Shown one piece after another: positions 3,497-53,482 of a stretch of DNA of 64,000 bases. Source of the DNA: Bolinopsis microptera (taxonomy: Eukaryota > Ctenophora > Tentaculata > Lobata > Bolinopsidae); the NCBI RefSeq assembly GCF_026151205.1, contig NC_087077.1:13490983-13554982 (forward strand), given 5' to 3'. The notes under the pieces were generated by a model. The model was given only the letters and a program-made list of their open reading frames with translations, was not told where the DNA came from and made no database searches. The first letter of the stretch is position 1. Each line of letters starts with the position of its first letter. Position numbers and translations under genes: made by a program.

Positions 3497-6400
3497 ATGA
3501 CTACTCCAGCGAGTGGATACTACAGCAACGTTACTTCTGCTAGTTATTCGCTGTACTCGTTCTATTATACCACAGTTACTAAGCCTCCTGCTCACAATGC
3601 ACAGGGGAGAGGATATACTCTTTCTCCTACAGCTGACAAGGTAAACATTGAGATTTTATAAAACTAAGTTTTTAGATAGTTTGAGATTTTAACTTTAAGA
3701 AAGGGGAGATTTCTATCACTGAATGCAAATAAATTGTAGATTTCAAAAACAAGATTATTTAATTACAAAATAATCACACTATACGCAATAACCAAACTGC
3801 TATGATATCAATTCAGCAACCAACCTCAAAAGTTGAACGAAATAATCCTACTTGATGTGTTTCAGGTTCTAGCAGTAATACTACCGATATTGTCAATACC
3901 GGGCCTCTTTATGAACGTGATAGTGTTATGGAACCTGTTTATCAAGGCAAGCAAACTGAACAGACCTACCCGACAACTACACGGACATCTCGTTATTTCC
4001 AATTTCATCCTCCTTATCTTGTGTGTCCCCTCTATATCGTGAGTAATGATAACTTATTTTCGGGTTTTATTCCCTTGAAACCAGGCATAGAATTAGAACG
4101 GAAGTCAACATTCAAAATGTAGTGAAATTAGTTACAACTTAGTGACAAATTAGTGACAACTTAACCATCAATATCCTCCTCCGCAGGTTGATACTCTTCA
4201 ATGGACGAATTGACAATCCTACTCTTGATCAAAGAGTGGAAAACTATGTGCTCAACAACATATTCTGTAATATTAGCGGTTTCGTGTTTAATGTTATGAT
4301 GAGAATGACAATTCACATCAGTACCGCTCTGGCTGTGGACAGAGTACTTGCAGGTATGATGATCGATTTACAGTGATTTTGTTTGTTGTCACTAATTATT
4401 TGGATGATTGCATTTTTTCGTGTTTCTAATAATCTAATAAAAACCAATTGCTTTTCAGTGCAGTTCCCGATATTTCACAAGTTCAAAGTGCAGGTTTATG
4501 GTTACAACTGGTTAATTATCATTATCTGGATATTTAATCTGGTTACCATGGCAACGCCTTTCATAGCTGGCAAGTAAGTCTTTCCTCTTAACATTCTCAA
4601 TATAAAGTGAGATAAAGTGTGATAAAGTAGAAATTAATAAATTTTAGGCAGTATTTTGACCTGTAATTTTAGGTCCATCTCTGTTCTGTATAATGTATAT
4701 AACTATATGATATTTAGTAGTCACAAGTCTTGCCTAGTTTCATTTCAAGTTATTCTTTACATTTAAGAAAGAAAGTTTAGCTTTCAAATTAAGGACTTAT
4801 CAGCTTCGTCAGGTGTTATTAAATCTAACCTTAAAAAGCACTTGCTATCCCTCCAAAATCGAGATGACCCTAATACATGGTAACTAATCTATATTATATC
4901 TCAAACTCTACATCCGGTACGGCTATGCACACATGATATCTCTCTCTGCCATGAAACATGGCTAACCTTTTAAACTGTGATTCAAAACCTAAAGCTAAAC
5001 TAAAACTTAACTGGGCTCTCCTTTGTCACCAAACTAAACCAATAAGTAATTTTAGATTATTATATTTTTCTATATTTGTATAATAAGTATATTGACGTAG
5101 TGGATGGTTGAGGGGGTTTCAAGCACAGGTCACTCTCAAATCCTAAAGATAAGCAGTGGCCTTCGGCACTTGAAACCTCTTCAAACCTCCCCTGATTTAT
5201 TTATTATTGATATTGTTTGATTGTGCCGTAAAAATAAATATTTGTTTTATTAAATATTTGTTTTATTATTAAAACATTTTATTGTTTCAGGCAGTATGTG
5301 CAAGGTCCGTTTGAATGCGTCTGCAATTGGAGTTTGGATTATGCTGTTTTCTCACGAATCGGAGAGCACGACCATTTCCTGAGGACTCTCGTTGTTCTGT
5401 CGTACTTCTTCATTCCATTTACTTTAACCAACCTCCTAACTATTATCTGCTGTATTTGGGTAAGACTTGAATTTTTCATCAATTTATCAAAAATCGAAAA
5501 TAAAATAATAATCATACTTGTTCCAAAATTGTACGGAAATGATGTTGACTTTAAATTGTATGATATCAAGCTGCATAAATGAAGTCTATGTACGAATGAT
5601 TTAATGATGTTCGTTATTCAGGTTATAGTTTTACTGCTGAAGAAAAATCTAATATTTACCGTGGAAAAACGGAAGGAAGATCACAAGATCTCAACCAAAG
5701 ACAACCATCAGTATGAACGTCTGCAATGCATCAAAGAAAATGGACATCCGGTGGATGAGTTAAAAACCAATGGCCACTCAGCTGATTCTCCGACAACAAC
5801 ATCAAACGGAAAACAACCTCAAATCCGTAAAAACAAACCCACAAAAAAATTAACACAATCAACTTCAATATTGAAGTCAATCAAACTGTCAAACGACGCC
5901 AAAGTAAAAAGGTTAGTTCAATACCAAATTCACCAACTGGAGATTGTGGCCGGAATTTACGATTATATTAATTTCATTAGTCGTGGATCTCTGTTTTATA
6001 TAAAGCAATTTACTTCAATAAAGATTTGTTATCACAGGAGATATTGTGGTAATTTCTAAATATAACTGTAATACATTGATTTAAAGTTTATTTGAATTTT
6101 GAAATAAACATCATTTAACAAATAACGTCCAGGGCGTGCTACACTATGTTGATAATGATGGCCTTGCAGTTATTATGCTACTCAGTGGTTCAGTTAATGG
6201 TTGTTGATCAGCTACTTTTCCATGTCTTCAAGGCTAATTACTTTTATACGGTTGGTGAATATCTCGTTTCCCTGTAGTATTTGACCCGTCGAAAATTCAT
6301 AATACATAAATTTGTCGAATGTTTTTTAAAATCATTCATTACAACATACTGTTCCTAAGTCTTCTTCAATCTATAATATTAAATTATTCCAAATGAACGC

Positions 6401-10600: not shown

Positions 10601-13600
10601 TTTATACATCCAACTACTAACCAGTAACCATTAAGTATCATTATAAAGCTATGAAATGCATGATAAAGACTCGAGCCAAAAATCGTGTTATTCGAGGAAG
10701 TCCAAGTTATATTTTATAATCATAATGCGTCTTAATGCTTAATGAAAAATATAAAAAGGATCAGTTTAACATTTCTAAGGGTTTCCTTTCATTTAAAAGG
10801 TTATGCATGATATATTGATAGAACTTCGTGATAATTGACAAAAGGGATTAGAACCAAAAGAAACATTACTATTACTTACTATAATATTACTATACTATTA
10901 CTATTAGTATTACTAACTGATTGCAAGAGGGTTACCTGAATTCTTCTTTCAGATCTTCATGTTTTCCATATTGTTCATTTAACTTTATCTCCATGAGATG
11001 ATTCTCTTTTTTCATTGCTGATATGTCTAGCTTCATCAACCGGACCTGAAAAATGAATAATATGTAGATCGTTGTAAACATTAATAATACTTAGTGGTAT
11101 AAGCCATCGTTTGAACTTTATGTCGCCTACCTATGTCGTAATTTCAACCTTTGATCTTGTTCTAAAATACCAGTATCAACATTTGTGGTAATAACAAAAT
11201 GTATGGCATCGAACCAATACAATAAACATGTCTCAGATATCTTCTACGATCTGAGCAATTGATTGACCATTAGTATTCCAGCATACCCAATACCGACGAG
11301 TGTGATTTCCTAACATCGAATTTAAGTAGACTGATTCACGATCAATAACAATCTCTGTTGGTAATGCTAACTAATGTCAACCCTGGGCCCGCGTTATCAC
11401 TAACAATCACTGTTGGTAATGCTAACTAATGTCAACCCCGGGCCCGCGTTATCACTAACAATCACTGTTGGTAATGCTAACTAATGTCAACCCCGGGCCC
11501 GCGTTATCACAAACAATCACTGTTGGTAATGCTAACTAATGTCAACCCCGGGCCCGCGTTATCACTAACAATCACTGTTGGTAATGCTAACTAATGTCAA
11601 CCCCGGGCCCGCGTTATCACTAACAATCACTGTTGGTAATGCTAACTAATGTCAACCCCGGGCCCGCGTTATCACTAACAATCACTGTTGGTAATGCATA
11701 ATGCTAACTAATGTCAACCCCGGGCCCGCGTTATCACTAACAATCACTGTTGGTAATGCTAACTAATGTCAACCCTGGGCCCGCGTTATCACTAACAATC
11801 ACTGTTGGTAATGCTAACTAATGTCAACCCTGGGCCCGCGTTATCACTAACAATCACTGTTGGTAATGCTAACTAATGTCAATCCCGGGCCCGCGTTATC
11901 ACTAACAATCACTGTTGGTAATGCTAACTAATGTCAATCCCGGGCCTGCGTTATCACTAACAATCACTGTTGGTAATGCTAACTAATGTCAACCCTGGGC
12001 CCGCGTTATCACTAACAATCACTGTTGGTAATGCTAACTAATGTCAATCCCGGGCCCGCGTTATCACTAACAATCACTGTTGGTAATGCTAACTAATGTC
12101 AACCCTGGGCCCGCGTTATCACTAACAATCACTGTTGGTAATGCTAACTAATGTCAATCCCGGGCCTGCGTTATCACTAACAATCACTGTTGGTAATGCT
12201 AACTAATGTCAACCCTGGGCCCGCGTTATCACTAACAATCACTGTTGGTAATGCTAACTAATGTCAACCCTGGGCCCGCGTTATCACTAACAATCACTGT
12301 TGGTAATGCTAACTAATGTCAACCCCGGGCCCGCGTTATCACTAACAATCACTGTTGGTAATGCTAACTAATGTCAACCCCGGGCCCGCGTTATCACTAA
12401 CAATCTCTGTCACAGTGCTGGCAAGCACGACCGTTGCATTTATTGTGGGTATACTATGTACCCCATTTACTATTATACCCCCTTTACTATTATACCCCCT
12501 TTACTATTATACCCCCTTTGGTACACATTACAAGCCTCTTTCGTGCACGCGAAGCGTGCACTCTGGCCGAAGGCGGCGGCCGAAGGCCGCCGCCTCCGGC
12601 AGGAGTTTTTCAGGCATTAAGACTCATCGGAAGTCGTTCAGCAGATTTATTTTTAGTTCAAAACATTCTAATTTGATGTCAAAGATGACAGGAATAAAAA
12701 ATAGTTATGTTGAGATTTTTAAGAAATTTGCATAAAATACTCGCCAGCACTGTTATACGAAATTCGGTAAAAAACCCAAAATCGCCATATTCAGGTGCCT
12801 TAAAAACCATGTTAAAATTGAGTTAGAGATCTGAAATTTTTCAGGGCGTCTAGACGTTGACCAAATCGACTGCAAAAAAAGTTTCAGGTTTCAGGATTAT
12901 CGGGAAATGGGTTTTCTAGAACCCCTGTTTTACGATAGATTGTCGTGATACATACAGATATACATACATATTATATATATTCAGGGATAGACGCTTTGCC
13001 AGTCAATTGTAGCCTGTATTTAATTGTCCATAGATTCAAAAGTATAAAAGATACAGCCATTTCCGACCACAGGTCTTGAAAATAATTGTCTACACTTTAG
13101 TTTACATTGTATAAACAAATTATTTGACGTCATGAACACCCCTTGATGACGTCATCAAGTTAACCGTTTTTAAAACTTGATTTTTGACAAAGTAATCACT
13201 TTTAAAAATGATTTTACACCATTAAAAAGTAATTGTATTCAAAATCTGAGGAAATTTTTACCTTAGATAATTGTTCAAGCATTCTGAAAATCTACCGGAA
13301 AGTTTTTCTAGCTTGCTCCTTCATAAAGATATTCGTCATTGAAGTTTGTGCTTTTTTGAAGAATTATTTTATAAAAACGTCAATTTTGCGATTTAGTATT
13401 CTCTGGTGTTGGGCCATGCCTTGGATTGTGGAGCTCAGTTCTGCTTCTTATAGGTATAAATTGTGCATTAGGCTAGTTTTAAAGTTGAAAATCGAAAAGT
13501 TGCACACGTGGGGACACGCCCAAATTTATAGAAAATTGCTAAAATCACTGAAAATTGCTGTTTTCGTCATTTTCTGTCAACTTTAGAGTGCCGTTGTGAT

Positions 13601-16600
13601 TACAGTTCTTCTTGAAATACTTTGAAACTTTGCATGCTTATTAAACTATATATAAAACAATTACATGCAAAAATTTAGGGCGGTTCAATATTGGATGCGC
13701 ACGCAACGTCCGCTCAAAGTTTGCACGTGCGAAAGGTGAGAATTTTGCTCATTCGTGATTTCCAACAAATTCTGCTTTGCCACGACAGTTTAATGTCATT
13801 ATATATGAATTTAATGCCAACTTGAATGAGTATTAAGTGGCATATTCAGTCAGTGATCGACCGATATGCTTACCTAAACACAAGGAAATGTTTTTAAAGG
13901 ACAAATTTCGAAATCGTTGAAACTTCCTCCTTATTAATATAATGAAGATATCAGTTTATATTTCGACTTTATAAAGTACCCTGACATTATAATCAAAAAG
14001 AGATGATATTTTACCAAAACCCATAATCATGGGTAGAGTGGACCGCTGCCAGTGTCTCTCTTTCCCAAACAAAAGGAAATGATATTAATTTGATTGACCG
14101 TTCTCAAATGCAAAATGATACCGAGAATGAAATCGGTCGCTCGCTTTTCCCATTCATTTACAATTGTAACAGATTAAGAAGAACTACCCAAAGGCAGCTG
14201 TACTCGGCAATAAAGATTCAATAAACTTCAGCTAATTCAATAAGTAATAACTACCACCCTTACCCCGAAATACTAGGTATCGACCCGAACGCAACCCAAA
14301 GAGATTTTTACAGCATCTGATTGATGTAATCAATCGAAACTTATTACAATTCGTAAGCCGTGAATGAATGGGAAAAGCGAGCGACCGATTTCATTCTCGG
14401 TATCATTTTGCATTTGAGAACGGTCAATCAAATTAATATCATTTCCTTTTGAGTGGAGTTGGGTTAAAAACATATAAGAGATACGATGATTTAACTTGTA
14501 GAAGCTTTCAATAAACATGTGTTAATCGTCGTCAGCTGAATGTGATGTGGTGGACAATGCTTATATGTGATTGAGTGGTGTCAGGGATGGAGGGTGGGGG
14601 AGGTGTGGGTGGGAAAGTGAAAATTACAGTACAATGTCAATAAAAATTTAGTCTTCTGTTGAGGTTGAGAAGGAAATGCCAGATGGTCTGGACTTTAAGG
14701 ATTTGGCAATTTTAGGAAGAATGGGGTCCCAGAGGGAACTACATTTGGGTGCGCGGTCTGTTCTGTTCATAGCTGGTTGTCGTATTTGTATAGCTGCGTG
14801 TTCTGTGAGGTCAAGTTGGGAGCGTGAGGTGAGGGATTTGAGGACTTCGATGTTGTTCCAGGAGATGGTGTGGCCGGTGGTCAGGGCATGATGTGCAGGG
14901 GCTGATTTGATTCTGTCTGTGGATTCGTCGATGGCGTTGTTGAGTCTGTAACATCGTTCGTGTTCTTTCATGCGGTGGACCAAGGGTCTGTAGGTCTGTC
15001 CGGCGTATTTGGAGGGGCACTGTGAGCAGGAAATTTCGTAGATGGTGTTGGGAGTGAGGTGAGTAGGGGGTGTGGTCTTCGTTTTGGTGAGGAGGTTGCG
15101 GAGGGAGGTAGCAGAGGAGTGGGTGACTTTGATGTCGTGTTGTCCGAGTATCTTGGAGATGGGTTTGGATAGGGAGGGATGGAAAGGAAGAGAAACACTA
15201 AGGGCATGTTCACGGGTCTGTCGGTTGAATGAGGCTAGGGATTGGTGGCGAGAGGGGTTGGTGAATTTCCGTTGTACTTCGTCCATGATGGTGGTGATGC
15301 GGTGAGGAGGGAAGCCGTTCTGGAGGCAAACGTGTCGTACTGTCTGGAGTTCGTCGTCAAGGTGTTGGGGTGAGCAGATGTTGTGGGCTCTTCTGGTCAG
15401 TGATCGGATGACTGCGTTCTTAGATGAGTTGGTGGTGCAGGAGGAGTACTTGGTGTAGAGGTTGGTGTGGGTGGGTTTTCTGTAGACTGATGTGGATTTG
15501 TCAGGGTGGATGAGAACGTCAAGGAAGGGTATAGTTCCGTCTGTAGAGGGATGTTCTTGGGTAAAGTTGAGGTCTTCAGTAAGGGAGTTAAGGAATGTAA
15601 GGAAGGATTCTGCGTGGTTTCTGTCTCTGAAAGATCCAAGGCCGTCGTCAACGAAATGGGAGTAAGTGTTCGGAGGGTCAGGACATGAGGATAAAGCTAA
15701 GGTCTCGATTTCAGCAAGACGGATTTCAGCTAGTTCAACAATGAGGGGGGATCCCATTGTACCACCTTCGTCTTGGGAGTAGAAGGAGCCGTTGAATTCA
15801 AGGTATGAGTTGTCAAGGCAAAAGTTGATAAGGGAGCCTATGGTGGTGGTGGTGACATTGGAGGGAAGACGAGAGGGGTTCTGTTCAAAGGAGGAGATGA
15901 CAGTTTTGAGGGCTAGGCGCATGTCACAGGAGGTGTACAAGGATTGGACGTCTAAGGAGGCGTGGTAGTGGAAGGAGGGATTGAGAGAGGAGTCGAAGCG
16001 ATGTTTGAAGTCGGAAGAGTCTTTGAGGCGTAAGGGGTTCTGGGCTAGGGGTTTGAGGAAAGATGCGAGGACTTTGTGGAGGGCTTGGAGGGGGGTGTTG
16101 TAGAAGCTGACTACGGGACGGATAGGTGCGCCGGGTTTGTGTATCTTAGGTTGTCCGTAAAGTTGAGGCCATCTAGGATGTAGGTTGCGCATCTTGTGGT
16201 ATAGGTCGGTCGTGATCTTCTTGTCGGTGTGTAGTTTCTTGAGGACTTTCTGTAGTTTAGTGGTAACGGATTGAGTGGGGTCTTTCGTTAAGAGGGTGTA
16301 ACTACCTGAGGATAAGTGGTCGGTAACTTTGGTTATGTATTGATCGTGAGTCAGTACAACAGTGGCGTTGCCCTTATCAGCAGGAAGAAATTTCAATTCA
16401 GATTTCTTAGATTTTAAAGATTTAAGAGCGGTACGTTGTTGTGGAGTCAAATTGTCGGTGGTCATGTCACGTTTATTGTCAAATTTAGATAATACAGAGG
16501 TGACCTGATATGTGGCTGAGGCTTCCATGCCTTCTCCTAGTTGTTTAGTGATATTCTGTATGAGGGGAGCCAGGTCGGGGGTAGGATCTGAGGTGGGTGT

Positions 16601-17023
16601 CGGGACGAACTTCAGTCCAAGGGAGAGGACGTCAGTTTCAGCTGTGGAGAGGGTCTGTCCAGAGAGGTTGATCACTGTTTTGGCTGTGGTGTCTTTCTTG
16701 GGGGTAGGTGAGGTCTTGAGGAGGGGACCATTTCCTTTTGTTTGGGAAAGAGAGACACTGGCAGCGGTCCACTCTACCCATGATTATGGGTTTTGGTAAA
16801 ATTGGTAATGCTAACTAATGTCAACCCCGGGCCCATTATAATGCGAATATCTCAGTACGGATACCCTACCTAGTTTTATAATTTGTAGTAGTATTACCTG
16901 CTCGTCTATGGTGCTCTGATAGACCTCAGCTTGCCATACGAAGAGGGAGCAGACAGCACTGATCAGACCGATAAGAAGTATAGAGTAGAAACAGTTCTTA
17001 ATACAATTCACTAAACGAGGCAT
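7642..17023 (-). CDS. Golgi carbohydrate sulfotransferase-like protein
   Basis: Exons in transcript order: 17023-16898, 11045-10936, 10564-10308, 10118-9928, 8842-8663, 7860-7642; 360 residues, all GT-AG and in frame. The family transfers sulfate from PAPS to Gal, GlcNAc or GalNAc in the Golgi lumen. Residues 1-11 are a basic cytoplasmic tail and 12-30 a signal anchor (type II); a Lys/Glu-rich stem follows. HILIVS starts the catalytic domain. The 3'-phosphate site is clear (YVHRDPRAIISRL), and the C-terminal Trp-Lys-x-x-Leu and Cys-x-x-Val pattern matches CHST1-7 proteins. Odd: the 5'-phosphosulfate loop reads SEKLGGSDV where the family has an Arg-(Ser/Thr)-Gly-Ser core, so the Arg is absent at an exon junction; the middle is also shorter than usual. 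It may be divergent, inactive, or missing an exon. Intron 1 carries the minisatellite and the Penelope element. Confidence 0.72.
8102..8125. repeat. (TA)n microsatellite
   Basis: About twelve TA dinucleotides in a row, inside the last intron of the sulfotransferase gene. Confidence 0.9.
9098..9523. mobile_element. 426-bp hAT-type MITE with 8-bp target duplication
   Basis: The element starts CAGAGTTGAAAAATACG and ends in the inverted CGTACTTTTCAACTCTG. Both sides are flanked by the same 8 bases, AAAATATG (9090-9097 and 9524-9531). TIRs starting CAG with an 8-bp duplication are the hAT superfamily signature. Inside are repeated inverted blocks around TACGTATTTTA and AATACGGCGTATTT. There is no ORF, so it depends on a transposase elsewhere. 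It sits in intron 4 of the sulfotransferase gene. Confidence 0.85.
11341..12410. repeat. 55-bp minisatellite, about 19 units
   Basis: Head-to-tail units of 55 bp, each with ATCACTGTTGGTAATGC, GCTAACTAATGTCAA and a CCCGGGCCC palindrome. Variation is mostly C/T at single positions (CCCCGGG, CCCTGGG, TCCCGGG). One unit near 11697 carries a 7-bp duplication. The array stops at 12410 in mid-unit and resumes exactly in phase at 16803. No spacers are present, so this is not CRISPR. It lies in intron 1 of the sulfotransferase gene. Confidence 0.95.
12463..12518. repeat. 18-bp repeat, three units
   Basis: Three near-identical units of CCTTTACTATTATACCCC in tandem, just left of the paired GC hairpins and inside the 4.4-kb insertion. 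Confidence 0.9.
12543..12594. other. Two consecutive perfect GC hairpins with GAA loops
   Basis: The first is GTGCACGC-GAA-GCGTGCAC (12543-12561): 8-bp stem, GAA triloop. The second is GGCGGCGGCC (12572-12581), GAA, then the exact reverse complement (12585-12594). On the minus strand, which is the transcribed sense of the surrounding intron, the second has a CUUCGG tip. Both stems are perfect and sit in AT-rich surroundings. Function unknown. Confidence 0.85.
12595..14007. other. Left part of the 4.4-kb insertion, no gene recognised
   Basis: This sequence lies inside the segment that interrupts the 55-bp array but outside the recognisable Penelope unit. Short ORFs only, none of known type. 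Two TGACGTCA palindromes are listed separately. It could be an older or different mobile element, or a 5' truncated copy of one. Confidence 0.4.
13125..13158. promoter_or_regulatory. Pair of CRE-like TGACGTCA palindromes
   Basis: TGACGTCA occurs at 13125-13132 and 13147-13154. The second sits in a 16-bp perfect palindrome, TTGATGACGTCATCAA (13143-13158). TGACGTCA is the CREB/ATF consensus. The 22-bp spacing is close to two helical turns. There is no evidence that it is used. Confidence 0.35.
14008..16802 (-). mobile_element. Penelope-like retroelement with inverted pLTR pieces
   Basis: The main body reads on the minus strand, with its 5' end at 16802 where it abuts the resumed 55-bp repeat. 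A 74-bp segment at 16729-16802 is repeated inverted at 14008-14081. An 89-bp segment at 14363-14451 is repeated inverted at 14070-14158. The 14008-14158 piece therefore joins both in one stretch and looks like a full pseudo-LTR in opposite orientation, an arrangement known for Penelope-like elements. The coding region is given separately. Same transcriptional orientation as the host gene. Confidence 0.85.
14648..16675 (-). CDS. Penelope-like reverse transcriptase with GIY-YIG endonuclease
   Basis: Retrotransposition protein of 675 residues, uninterrupted. Residues 96-109 carry the ADKGNATVV block; 171-190 the YGQPKIHKPGAPIRPVV block typical of Penelope RTs. RT motif A is around Asp242 (SLDVQSLYTS), motif B at 302-311 (DEGGTMGSPL), and motif C is FVDD at 341-344. 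PFLDVLI (383-389) and VYRKPTHTNLY follow. The C-terminal GIY-YIG endonuclease spans about 545-630: IYEISC, then YAGQTYRPLVHRMKEH, and a later TEHAAIQ that would supply the acidic residue. No ATG opens this frame: it starts at GTG, with open frame upstream, and the first ATG is at residue 50. Translation may start at a non-ATG codon or after splicing. All catalytic residues seem present, so it may be recently active. Confidence 0.92.
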   Translation of the reverse strand: MINLSGQTLSTAETDVLSLGLKFVPTPTSDPTPDLAPLIQNITKQLGEGMEASATYQVTSVLSKFDNKRDMTTDNLTPQQRTALKSLKSKKSELKFLPADKGNATVVLTHDQYITKVTDHLSSGSYTLLTKDPTQSVTTKLQKVLKKLHTDKKITTDLYHKMRNLHPRWPQLYGQPKIHKPGAPIRPVVSFYNTPLQALHKVLASFLKPLAQNPLRLKDSSDFKHRFDSSLNPSFHYHASLDVQSLYTSCDMRLALKTVISSFEQNPSRLPSNVTTTTIGSLINFCLDNSYLEFNGSFYSQDEGGTMGSPLIVELAEIRLAEIETLALSSCPDPPNTYSHFVDDGLGSFRDRNHAESFLTFLNSLTEDLNFTQEHPSTDGTIPFLDVLIHPDKSTSVYRKPTHTNLYTKYSSCTTNSSKNAVIRSLTRRAHNICSPQHLDDELQTVRHVCLQNGFPPHRITTIMDEVQRKFTNPSRHQSLASFNRQTREHALSVSLPFHPSLSKPISKILGQHDIKVTHSSATSLRNLLTKTKTTPPTHLTPNTIYEISCSQCPSKYAGQTYRPLVHRMKEHERCYRLNNAIDESTDRIKSAPAHHALTTGHTISWNNIEVLKSLTSRSQLDLTEHAAIQIRQPAMNRTDRAPKCSSLWDPILPKIAKSLKSRPSGISFSTSTED

Positions 17024-31900: not shown

Positions 31901-34900
31901 TTATACAGTGACTTGGTGTGGCCTAGAGGAATCGTTATACTTGAGAAATAATGTCGTGTCACTAATACGTCATCAGAGAGTCGCACAACAATTTGATGCT
32001 CACACTAATTTTGGGTCACATTCACAACAAGGATTAATGCAATGATTTGCAGAACCTTTACGTAAACTTTACCTTGCAATGACAGGATATTATAATTTAA
32101 AAATATAATTCACGTCACTTTTACGAAATGACACCGCTAACTTCCATGCAGGATTTAAAGTGAGCCACGAAGTTTATGTAATATGTATTGATTTAAGTGC
32201 AGTGTATAAAATAACATGGTGACAAAAAGGGAACTGATGGAAATGCAGGATAATGGGCGTTATGCGAGTTTATTGGTTCACGATTCAGATTGTTCAGAAT
32301 TCAATGTTTGACGGGTTTTTGTTTTTGCGACCGCACATCTCTTTTCTGAAGCACCGTTAATATTTGTCACATAATCACATGGTAGATGGTTATAAACGTT
32401 GATTTATGAGAGATTAACTTGATGGCAGGTAAAAACGTACTGTTATCAATTATATTGGAGGATAAGTTAAAATATGCTGTGAGAAGCATATATTAAGTAA
32501 GTTAAGTAACAAGTAATATTACAAATTCCTCGAGTTTACTTCTCACCTTTTAACTATTGGTACGCTACAATAATATGTTCTATAATTTGTGAATATGTTT
32601 GTAATTCGCTGTTCCATTTTCCAACCGAGATGTACGTTCATTGCTATTAGTTAATGCAAATATTATGCTAATCTGTTATGCTAATCTCAACAGAAAATTA
32701 GAAATGTTTTAACTATTTCCAACTGCTTGTTTATTAGCAGCAATAATCCAACCAAAACACTTACTAGATGTTCAATGGCGTCAATAATCTGAGCGAAGTA
32801 CGTTCTGGCTTCATCCTCGTCAAGTCTTGCTTTCTCTTTACTTGACACTTTAGCGTACAGTTCTCCGCCTGCAAAAAATAAATCGATAAGAAAAATATGT
32901 CAACAAATAAATTAGTAAAATTTCTATGATTATAATATGATAGAGAATTTCAGAGAGATTTTATTGAAAATATGCAAACTTTAGTAAATCAAGTACTGGA
33001 CTCGTTATCACGTACTGGCATGTCCAAGTTTCGTCCAAGTTTGAAGAAACGTGGCCTTGACGGTGAATTACTATCTAACTATAGGCCTATTAGCAATCTC
33101 TCATTCTTGTCAAAAATCATTGAGAAGTGTGTATCTATACAGCTCACCAGTTATCTTGAGGATAACAACTTGCTTTCTAAAGTTCAGTCCGGCTATAGGA
33201 AGTTTCATAGCTGTGAAACTGCAACAACCAGAATCCATAACGACATCTTGATAACTATTGACAAGAAAACTAAAGTTGTTCTTTTACTTCTAGATTTGAG
33301 TGCTGCCTTTGATACTGTCAATCACCCAAGATTAATCAAGAAGCTAAGATCTGCTTATGGCATTACAGGCATTGCTCTTACATGGATCAGGTCCTACTTG
33401 GCTAACCGTTCATTTTGTGTCAAAGTCAAGGATTCGTCTTCCTCATCAACTGTTCTTGAGATAGGTGTGCCACAAGGTTCAATCCTTGGCCCCCTGCTAT
33501 TCATATTGTACACCAAAGATCTTGAGAACATTGCAAGTATGCATGGGTGCTGTATTCATTTGTATGCTGATGACACCCAGCTGTATTTCACTCTTGATTC
33601 TGATGACCCATCACAGCTAGAGCACAATATGGAACACTGTATGTCTGATATCAAGAAATGGATGACAAACAATTTCCTTCAACTGAATTCTTCTAAGACT
33701 GAAGTCATCGTTATATCCTCTAAATTTGACTCAAAAAATATTCCAGCCTCTCTACAGATTGTTAAGGATCAAGAGCCACATGTTGTTAGTGGAACTGTGA
33801 AGAGTCTTGGGCTGTATTTGGACAGTTATCTTTCAATGAGTGATCAGATTACGTCAGTGGTTCAAGCATGTAATATTCAGATCAGAAATTTGTGGTTTAT
33901 TGCATCAAAACTGTCTTTTAACCTTAAGATTCAGCTTGTTCATGCTCTAGTACTCTCTAGAATTGATTATTGCAATAGCGTATATTTTGGACTGAGCTCT
34001 TATGATTTAAGTCGTTTACAGAAGGTGCAAAATTCTGCTGTAAGATTTATTTTCGGGAGAGGAAGAAAGGCACACACTACTCCACTACTTAAGAAAGTTC
34101 ATTTTCTACCAGTTAGATTTAGAATAGATTTTAAGATTGCCCTACTTGCCTACAAGTGTTTAAATAATATAGCTCCTCCTTACTTAAAAGAGTTGATATC
34201 TCCTAGGCAGCAAAGTTTTAAAAATGTACGTCTTGATAATGATTATTTTTACCTTAGTTTTCCGCCCTCTCCTAACTATGTAAACACAGAGAAAGCTTTT
34301 AGTCACTGTGCAGTTAAAGTATTTAATTCCCTGCCATACGACATAAGATCAGCTGAGTCAGTTACATCTTTCAAGACCAAACTTAAAACATACTTCTTTT
34401 CTCTAGCATTTGATTGATTTTGCATTTACATAGGTAAAATGAACTTGTCATGTCTAATTTTCAATTAAACTAAGCTCAGTTAATGTAAGAGCCGCTTTAG
34501 AAAGCACTGGAGTTTATCTCCAGGATTAAATTATATCGAGTTATATGATTTAGCTATAAGGCGGTTTATAAAAGTTGTATTTATTTATTATTATTATATG
34601 TATTATAATTATACATATCAGTCTAGTGGTCAGGCAACTTGAAGCGTTCCTAACCGCACCTGTTTTACACTAATTTATCTTTTAAAAGTATTTTAACCGA
34701 CATTGACGTTCACAAAAGTTTTAAACAGCTTGAGACAGCAGATTTCAAGTATATCATATTGTGTTAAACACTAAACAGGGGTTACATCTCGACCATATCT
34801 ACCATAATATCCAGATTGTCGGAGTATGGGTCGTTTGGGTATGTTCAGCACTTTTGGGGATTAAAGTTCTGTAATTTTGTCTGTGTTGAGAATGACTGGA

Positions 34901-50497: not shown

Positions 50498-51252
50498 CAA
50501 AGTTATCAAGCTTGTTTCGCTTTGATTAAAAGTTACTTGTTATATATGGACACGTTCATTTGAGTTTGAGGATATTGGTAAACAAAAATAATAGCGTTTT
50601 TGACGATAGTGGCTTAATTTTGACATCTATTAACCTAGCACGTTCAGAAGTTCTGAACATTAGCCACGTAACCCATACTCCCATATGCACCGCTCAGAAA
50701 GAAAATCTATTGTTGTTAGGCACTATAATGTTTCAAATGTCACATTTTGTGTGACTTAGTTAACTGCAGTTGTCTAATTATCATTCCTTGGTCTGAAATA
50801 TAGTAAATTAGGTCAATCTAACAATTATGATACAACATTGGTTAATGGGCACGGATCGAACGGTTACAAGGCAATATTTGGGTAACTTTGTCACACTCAT
50901 GATACCATACCTCAATTCTACTGTGAGGTGTCCTAAAAACCCTTTCAACTCATTATTTTATGGTTGCTCTACCAAGCATAGCCCTAAAATATGTTATTTT
51001 GAATAGTTAGCTAATACAGGCACTTGGTTATTGGGAAATGAGGTTAATTCTGTCACAATATATGAAATTTAAAATTTTGGGCGAATAATTTATATCTGAT
51101 TTGGTTTGAAAGGCGGGAAAATTTTATATGATGACATTGTAGTTGATGCAAGTTAAGATCAGTTGATGTTTACATTGTCACGAAAAATTATACGAAATCG
51201 TAAATAGATTAAAAACAATGATTATAGAATGAAATAGTCTCTTATAATAACT

Positions 51253-51910
51253 CTTATAATAACTGATGTGACAAAGTAAACATGTCTTGCCCCTATTTTG
51301 AAGATCTATATTCTATACCTCTATTAGAATATTGTCCAGAACATCAGAGCTTAAGTTTAACAATTTTAGGTTAAATTTGTCACTAAATTTGTCACTAAAG
51401 TCACTAAAAATGTGACAAAATTAACTTTTCATGCCCCAACAATTTCAAGATAGTGTGTAAAAATTAGCATAGGCTGCTTTATTACCTATATGTATCAATC
51501 CAAACTACAAAAAATATATGTTTATGTGATGACGATTACCTAACACTTATAATAACTGATGTGACAAAGTAAACATGTCTTGCCCCTATTTTGAAGATCT
51601 ATAACTCTATTAGAATTCAACATTCTTTCAGAAACGATTGGAAGAATATTTTCCAGAACATAAGAACTCAATTTTTAAAATTTAGATTAATTTGTCAAAG
51701 ACATTGAAAATGTGACAAAATTAACTTTCCCTGCCCCAACAGTATCAAGATAGTGTGTTAAAATTGGCATAGGATTTATTACAGGTATATTAAAGTATTA
51801 ATCGATTACGAAAAATATCTTTTAATCTGATGACGATTACCTAACTCTTATAATAACTGATGTGACAAAGTAAACATGTCTTGCCCCTATTTTGAAGAAC
51901 TATACCTCTA
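51253..51910. repeat. About 300-bp tandem repeat, two and a bit units
   Basis: The block CTTATAATAACTGATGTGAC starts at 51253, 51546 and 51847. Each time it is followed by AAAGTAAACATGTCTTGCCC and CTATTTTGAAGA, and the units end with GATGACGATTACCTAAC. The units are diverged by substitutions and small indels. It lies inside the 2.9-kb TIR element. Confidence 0.9.
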
Positions 51911-52127
51911 TTAGAATACTATGTAACTTTATCATCAAAAAAATTTCGATAAACTAGTTATTTTGCCAGCAAGGAGCTAACAGAGTTATAATAATTTGTT
52001 GTGACGAAATTACCCTATTTTTGACCATGTAGCGGTAGTTTAATTGTGACACTGTTAACATATTACCACCTGATAATGATTTATGGGGTGCATGGTACTA
52101 GCAGTGTTGTTTGATCCATAGTACGTA

Positions 52128-52864
52128 TAATATAATAATAATAATAATTACAACATTTATAAACCGCCTTATAGCTAAATCATATAACTCGATATAATTT
52201 AATCCTGGAGATAAACTCCAGTGCTTTCTAAAGCGGCTCTTACATTAACTGAGCTTAGTTTAATTGAAAATTAGACATGACAAGTTCATTTTACCTATGT
52301 AAATGCAAAATCAATCAAATGCTAGAGAAAAGAAGTATGTTTTAAGTTTGGTCTTGAAAGATGTAACTGACTCAGCTGATCTTATGTCGTATGGCAAGGA
52401 ATTAAATACTTTAACTGCACAGTGACTAAAAGCTTTCTCTGTGTTTACATAGTTAGGAGAGGGTGGAAAACTAAGGTAAAAATAATCATTATCAAGACGT
52501 ACATTTTTAAAACTTTGCTGCCTAGGAGATATCAACTCTTTTAAGTAAGGAGGAGCTATATTATTTAAACACTTGTAGGCAAGTAGGGCAATCTTAAAAT
52601 CTATTCTAAATCTAACTGGTAGAAAATGAACTTTCTTAAGTAGTGGAGTAGTGTGTGCCTTTCTTCCTCTCCCGAAAATAAATCTTACAGCAGAATTTTG
52701 CACCTTCTGTAAACGACTTAAATCATAAGAGCTCAGTCCAAAATATACGCTATTGCAATAATCAATTCTAGAGAGTACTAGAGCATGAACAAGCTGAATC
52801 TTAAGGTTAAAAGACAGTTTTGATGCAATAAACCACAAATTTCTGATCTGAATATTACATGCTA
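52128..52864 (-). mobile_element. LINE copy 2, 3' fragment nested in the TIR element
   Basis: The minus strand encodes the last 183 residues of the LINE polymerase at 32972-34417, with no amino-acid difference that I can see, followed by the same 3' UTR and an ATT-repeat tail. The match starts abruptly at GCATGTAATATTCAG (52863), so it is a short 5'-truncated insertion. It interrupts the 2.9-kb TIR element and so is younger than it. Confidence 0.92.
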
Positions 52865-53482
52865 TAAGGGGTTTAAGCTGGTATATCATTATTTGTTCAA
52901 TTTCACACATGTTCAGACATTATCAAGATTATGTGACAAAGTAAGCTTGGTTGTGCCTTCTGTGTTTTAATTCCTTACGACTATATGATATAATAACAAT
53001 TCCCAGCACTTCCAGGCCATCAAATAAACTTACACTACTCAGCATTGCTTATCAGGGTGCCCTAAACATTCATCACATATTTTCTTTAATGTGTGACAGA
53101 GTAAACCTGAATGCACCATCTAACGAAAAAAGTCGTCAAATATGTAGGTAATGGTCATATGTACCCATCCAATCAACTGGACACTCAAAAATTTGGTCAA
53201 AAACGGCAGCAAGGGGTCCATATTTACTCCGTCACATGTTTATAGTGTGACAATGTAACCATTTCCGTGCCGGCCGTATTTAAGCGATATCTTATCACCT
53301 GATTAAGATATCGTTATGTGACAAAGTTAGCCTAGAGGATGAGACGATTATCCTAACCATCAAGGGTTTAAGTAATTTCATAGTGTGAAAAAGTCAACTA
53401 CACTGTGCCTTTTAATAGGATCACTTATATTTACCAATATCCTCAAACTCAAATGAACGTGTCCATATACGTTGTATGACCC

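Follow-up and report, generated by a model that had tools for sequence, protein, structure and literature searches.

The locus considered here raises the question of what kind of element has exact inverted ends but no transposase of its own, and which enzyme could have moved it. Within the window, i.e. the whole 64,000-nucleotide stretch of Bolinopsis microptera DNA that was analysed, inverted arms were recovered at 50543-50592 and 53420-53469 (50 nt, 92% complementary). They mark the ends of a 2,919-bp element at 50547-53465, reading TGGACACG...CGTGTCCA, which is very probably a non-autonomous transposon with a 2-bp target duplication. According to an inverted-repeat comparison, its terminal inverted repeats (TIRs) are 36 bp long and exact at both ends, the left one lying at 50547-50582 (plus strand) and the right one, an inverted copy, at 53430-53465 (minus strand). 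TA stands on both sides. In particular, the left target duplication is placed at 50545-50546, following the 2-bp rule taken from the non-TA insertions and empty sites discussed below, and the right one at 53466-53467; the TA preceding the left duplication is likewise target. In other words, the outer TATA on each side of the element is target DNA and lies outside the TIR, so that an earlier note on this sequence was right about the exact inverted ends but overextended them in calling them perfect TIRs of 39 bp.

The body of the element is most easily described relative to a canonical copy of 2,185 bp (C1:2245183-2247367), which exceeds the usual size of a MITE. On alignment, the window copy proves to be this element enlarged by a LINE fragment of 727 bases. 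Namely, window positions 50547-52135 (plus strand) correspond to canonical 1-1587 with 96.9% identity and 52863-53465 (plus strand) to canonical 1583-2185 with 98.2% identity, and the breakpoints of this alignment delimit a nested, 5'-truncated LINE fragment of about 727 bp at 52136-52862 (minus strand), the left end of which carries an AAT-rich tail. The fragment is a later insertion and is not part of the transposon proper. The sole ORF of at least 100 aa in the window element, a 199-aa frame at 52311-52910 (minus strand), falls mostly within it and gave no Pfam match; by reading, the protein of the fragment repeats the C-terminal part of window ORF 32972-34417, which matches RVT_1 (Pfam). 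In the canonical copy the longest stop-to-stop frame measures 68 codons, and the lack of coding capacity noticed earlier is thereby borne out. Elsewhere in the window, at 14648-16675 (minus strand), a 675-aa frame resembles by inspection a Penelope-type reverse transcriptase, with no Pfam match at E 0.001.

Two kinds of repetition mark the interior. Tandem units of about 300 bp lie in the body, their number varying between element copies; in the window, repeat comparison finds three copies of 111 nt, beginning at 51213, 51506 and 51807, with spacings of 293 and 301 (internal tandem region 51213-51917, plus strand). What is more, a motif search found the heptamer TGTGACA in two opposed groups, inverted (TGTCACA) at starts 50738, 50889 and 51051 (50738-51057, minus strand) and direct at starts 51267, 51411, 51560, 51711, 51861, 52045, 52932, 53092, 53246 and 53317 (51267-53323, plus strand). 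The canonical copy contains the motif 14 times in its two orientations, three of them inverted (192-631) and the remaining eleven direct (722-2104), whereas 2,000 first-order simulations gave 0.45 on average and never more than 4. Several of the direct motifs fall within tandem units and are not independent. As a separate observation, a GGACA-rich satellite adjoins one copy of the family (L022) and in two others (L037 and L068) separates a TIR from the remainder of the element.

The window element belongs to a recent and abundant transposon family. Searching the genome with the end, as the earlier note had suggested, leads far beyond this one locus: the 38-mer TATGG...GGTAAA, with three mismatches allowed, is present at 466 + 467 = 933 places in the 264.65-Mb assembly, with 0 for the reversed-pattern control, and a 25-mer extended by ten flanking positions finds 488 + 494 = 982 places. 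All results on pairs and flanks given below rest on 100 matches listed per pattern, from C1 to C3 or C4. Divergence was followed in 25 copies with both ends present, two of them assembled from overlapping loci and one being the window copy. Their last 300 bases lie 0.0-2.7% from the majority sequence, and their first 280 bases 0.0-3.9% from it in 24 of the 25, values that are biased to young copies because these copies were chosen by exact ends. The exception, L042, reached 20.3% in the comparison of the left 280 bases, and in another alignment 343 of its 640 bases aligned; the window copy itself differs from the majority by 0.0% on the left and 0.7% on the right. The narrow range of the right ends argues for recent movement of the family, in agreement with the fairly recent mobility that had been supposed for this element.

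What the family does to its target is clearest where the target is unusual. With the 25-mer, a pattern free of any TA requirement, the listed rows show TA next to the TIR in 91 of 100 cases and TATA in 74; after removal of seven rows that share the flank ACAATGTATA, the corresponding figures are 84/93 and 67/93. Over these 93 rows, the four positions leading into the TIR are occupied mainly by T (89%), A (86%), T (95%) and A (92%), so that the outer TA is almost as constrained as the duplicated one. The TA on both sides of the 25 exact-end copies is no proof of duplication, because the 38-mer pattern required TA. The nine listed rows without TA, on the other hand, represent eight elements, all of which were read, and in four of the four with both ends readable equal dinucleotides stand on the two sides: AT (L063), CA (L065), TG (L022, whose right TIR carries two changes) and AA (L066/L067, two short stretches joined as one element by spacing and orientation). 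The sites read TA-AT-TA, TA-CA-TA, TT-TG-TA and TA-AA-TA, respectively, the duplicated pair being in the middle. As for the other four elements, three have one end within the 2.8 kb read and one extends beyond the read stretch. A TA duplication had earlier been thought possible; the 2-bp duplication is real, with a dinucleotide that is not always TA. If this tolerance is true over all copies, it bears on target choice by transposases that make 2-bp duplications.

Two empty sites, which are paralogous sites and not alleles, add to these findings, and both match gap-free after removal of 2 bp. One lies in the window, separate from the element treated here: the closed flanks of L047 (C2:6675905-6678096) align gap-free with all 302 positions of window 13499-13800 (plus strand), 95% of the bases being identical. 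The other belongs to L063 (C2:2033540-2036340), which is inserted in a perfect 62-bp satellite with nine identical units before the insertion. In the neighbouring array the closed site is present exactly 8 times with a single AT, and never with zero or two. Taken together, the exact ends, the target rule and the empty sites allow the family to serve as a marker of recent movement and as a starting point in the search for its transposase.

Given TIRs with a target duplication, no coding capacity and recent mobility, it follows that the transposase is supplied from elsewhere. An enzyme encoded at another locus would bind the 36-bp TIRs, and might also bind the TGTGACA motifs, three of which are inverted in the left part and the others direct. 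By what would be cut-and-paste chemistry, the element would be excised and then inserted in A/T-rich DNA, preferably in the middle of TATATA, and the insertion would copy 2 bp of the target. The longer relative carrying a transposase ORF, which the earlier note had proposed to look for, was not found among 11 TIR pairs of about 3.6-12.5 kb examined for an autonomous copy (E1, i.e. L009 and L010; E2, i.e. L011 and L012; L013-L019; L037; L068), a set that includes every pair longer than 3.5 kb that can be formed from the 100 listed 38-mer rows. These pairs consist of the canonical element together with nested reverse-transcriptase-type repeats or an LTR-type element (both by inspection), the insert of L017, satellite or tandem expansion. 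The L017 insert, which has a 125-aa frame with no Pfam match, is unclassified. Since the listed places are a minority of the TIR copies in the genome, an autonomous copy may exist among the others. Autonomous copies with foreign sequence inside the TIR were sought with patterns excluding the two canonical subterminal sequences and were rejected: of the 2 and 4 matches, four were point variants of canonical ends and two (L068 and L069) canonical copies. In L069 (C5:12557400-12564700), the canonical copy is followed by frames of 347 and 480 codons that look nuclease- and helicase-like by inspection, its right end lying outside the stretch read. A pattern made of the outer TIR followed by another base gave 5 matches, three of which look like TIR variants, and its control gave 8.

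Transposase profiles were equally searched from the other direction. Pfam matches in the genome number 13 for DDE_3, 114 for DDE_Tnp_4, at least 123 for DDE_1 (150 of 220 candidates scored) and 5 for YqaJ; Transposase_1 and Transposase_21 gave 0, but their controls were silent as well, so that this is no evidence of absence. None of the 19 transposase loci read bears the TIR as its own end. Only one, L031, contains the TIR at all, in an element that is a separate insertion beside a 183-codon DDE_1-like frame. Within 5 kb of a listed TIR end on C1-C3 we find 1/35 DDE_1, 0/23 DDE_Tnp_4 and 0/5 DDE_3 matches, the end lists for this comparison comprising exact listed rows only and being thin at the end of C3. 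A pogo-like locus (L027, C8:3917500-3922500) holds a 617-aa frame with DDE_1 and HTH_psq, situated among frames that are C2H2-type by inspection; its inverted ends at 1274-1298 and 4038-4062, about 2.8 kb apart, adjoin TA by reading. The motif TAACTTTG (4 occurrences, both strands), which this locus and the element have in common, was rejected as too short to count.

Which enzyme, then, would move the family? Our guess from the TA preference is one of Tc1/mariner-pogo type (IS630-Tc1-mariner), a proposal that we regard as evenly balanced and whose superfamily is unproven. In its favour, the genome does contain pogo-like DDE_1 transposases, L027 being one. The family shares with non-autonomous elements of this type a 2-bp duplication that is mainly TA, A/T-rich palindromic sites, TIRs, the lack of coding sequence and precise empty sites. 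It differs from them in its four verified non-TA duplications (AT, CA, TG and AA, a small sample), in outer target bases that are nearly as constrained, and in that no related transposase with its ends was found in the loci read. What is more, non-TA sites make up 9 of the 100 listed rows, more than the roughly 1.4% of insertions reported for Sleeping Beauty (PMC5801840), and this is an argument against an ordinary Tc1/mariner enzyme.

The next candidate in order is an enzyme of some other or undescribed kind, to which we assign a smaller but still appreciable probability. In a specific form, which we hold to be possible yet tentative, the missing partner would be a transposase of a kind that the Pfam models used do not cover, perhaps from an undescribed superfamily with 2-bp duplications. 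The constraint on the outer target bases, almost equal to that on the duplicated pair, agrees with this, as does the fact that no partner with DDE_1, DDE_3, DDE_Tnp_4 or YqaJ was found among the TIR matches listed. However, a missing partner weighs little when 100 TIR places are listed per pattern and the Transposase_1 and Transposase_21 controls are silent.

Unlikely, and less likely than a Tc1/mariner-pogo-type enzyme, is a partnership with the ISL2EU-like (PHIS) elements of the genome, which combine a YqaJ nuclease with a DDE_Tnp_4 transposase and belong to a group that also makes 2-bp duplications in A/T-rich targets. Such transposases are present: on C1, C4, C5 and C12, at four places in all, a YqaJ match is separated from a DDE_Tnp_4 match by about 5-6 kb. 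Moreover, A often precedes the duplicated pair of the window family, and one target (L063) reads A-AT-T, which is the target that PMC4482050 gives for ISL2EU, together with a 2-bp AT duplication and TIRs usually beginning with GG. The window family has TA and TGG instead, and the alternative register AT-GG...CC-AT fails at the CA and AA insertions. In addition, the right end common to three ISL2EU-like copies reads AGATGTGGATACTGG inward, unlike the TIR of the element, and the C12 and C5 copies contain no stretch matching at least 12 of the first 16 TIR bases, their left ends lying outside the stretches read. These large ISL2EU-like copies (L054-L059; C1:8309000-8320000, C12:8664500-8677500, C5:5698800-5711800) share long pieces that are about 92-99.5% alike, and the C1 copy also holds a frame that is C2H2-type by inspection. 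PIF/Harbinger was rejected, as the 3-bp TWA duplication described for it in PMC4482050 is not the 2 bp of the window family.

More doubtful still is the notion that the family represents the non-autonomous members of an undescribed transposase lineage that would read TATATA, duplicate any two central bases and use the opposed TGTGACA arrays to assemble its ends. Finally, a plain inverted duplication or segmental copy with no transposon involved can practically be dismissed: some ends are indeed passengers, since three of the seven listed rows with the flank ACAATGTATA were examined and are copies of one larger repeat, but flanks differ in most listed rows, and the equal dinucleotides at non-TA insertions together with the precise empty sites refute it as a general account. 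The three copies just mentioned (L020, C1:9752453-9757453; L021, C3:2262920-2264920; L031, C2:4834400-4840400) have in common this flank, roughly the first 311 bases of the element and the sequence that follows, which in L020 and L021 holds a reverse-transcriptase-like frame by inspection. A LINE that had inserted in one element probably gave rise to them, taking the left end of that element with it.

A non-autonomous DNA transposon with TIRs is an ordinary and already known kind of element, of which the window family is an additional member. It is comparable to MITE-like and satellite-bearing non-autonomous TIR elements in general, which likewise have no transposase, variable internal tandem repeats and many copies; an example is Tetris of Drosophila virilis, termed a foldback transposon (PMC4079207). 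A narrow open-access search found no paper on ctenophore non-autonomous TIR transposons, and the family may still be published; a chromatin paper on ctenophores and placozoans mentions DNA transposons, and not this element, in the passages considered (PMC12221973).

The family also has a relative within the genome. A second subfamily (B), with the end TGGACACGTTCATTGAAGTTTGAGG, is represented by a pattern with 117 + 115 places in the assembly and 0 for its control; by our own count, this end is carried by about 90 of the 100 listed rows, often in pairs 2.0-3.0 kb apart. Its one member read, L070, is 1,410 bp long with TA on both sides, and its interior has no frame above 64 codons. Aligned to the canonical copy, L070 shows 69-72% identity over its longer matches and reaches 77% on the right side; it has kept 33/35 bases of the motif cores and 31/36 of the TIR, as against 387/515 of the rest. 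Subfamily-B ends lie within 5 kb of 3/47 DDE_1 hits, where the random mean is 0.32 and a fraction of 0.0036 of shifts reach 3, this being one of 12 such tests made. The ends concerned are C1:10145904, C2:11261093 and C4:6098898, and only the one on C2 (hit at 11256848, end at 11261093) has the DDE_1 hit on its inner side. In L051 (C3:16966210-16968731), a canonical element has inserted at the TA of GGATATTGG, within a TIR belonging to a subfamily-B element.
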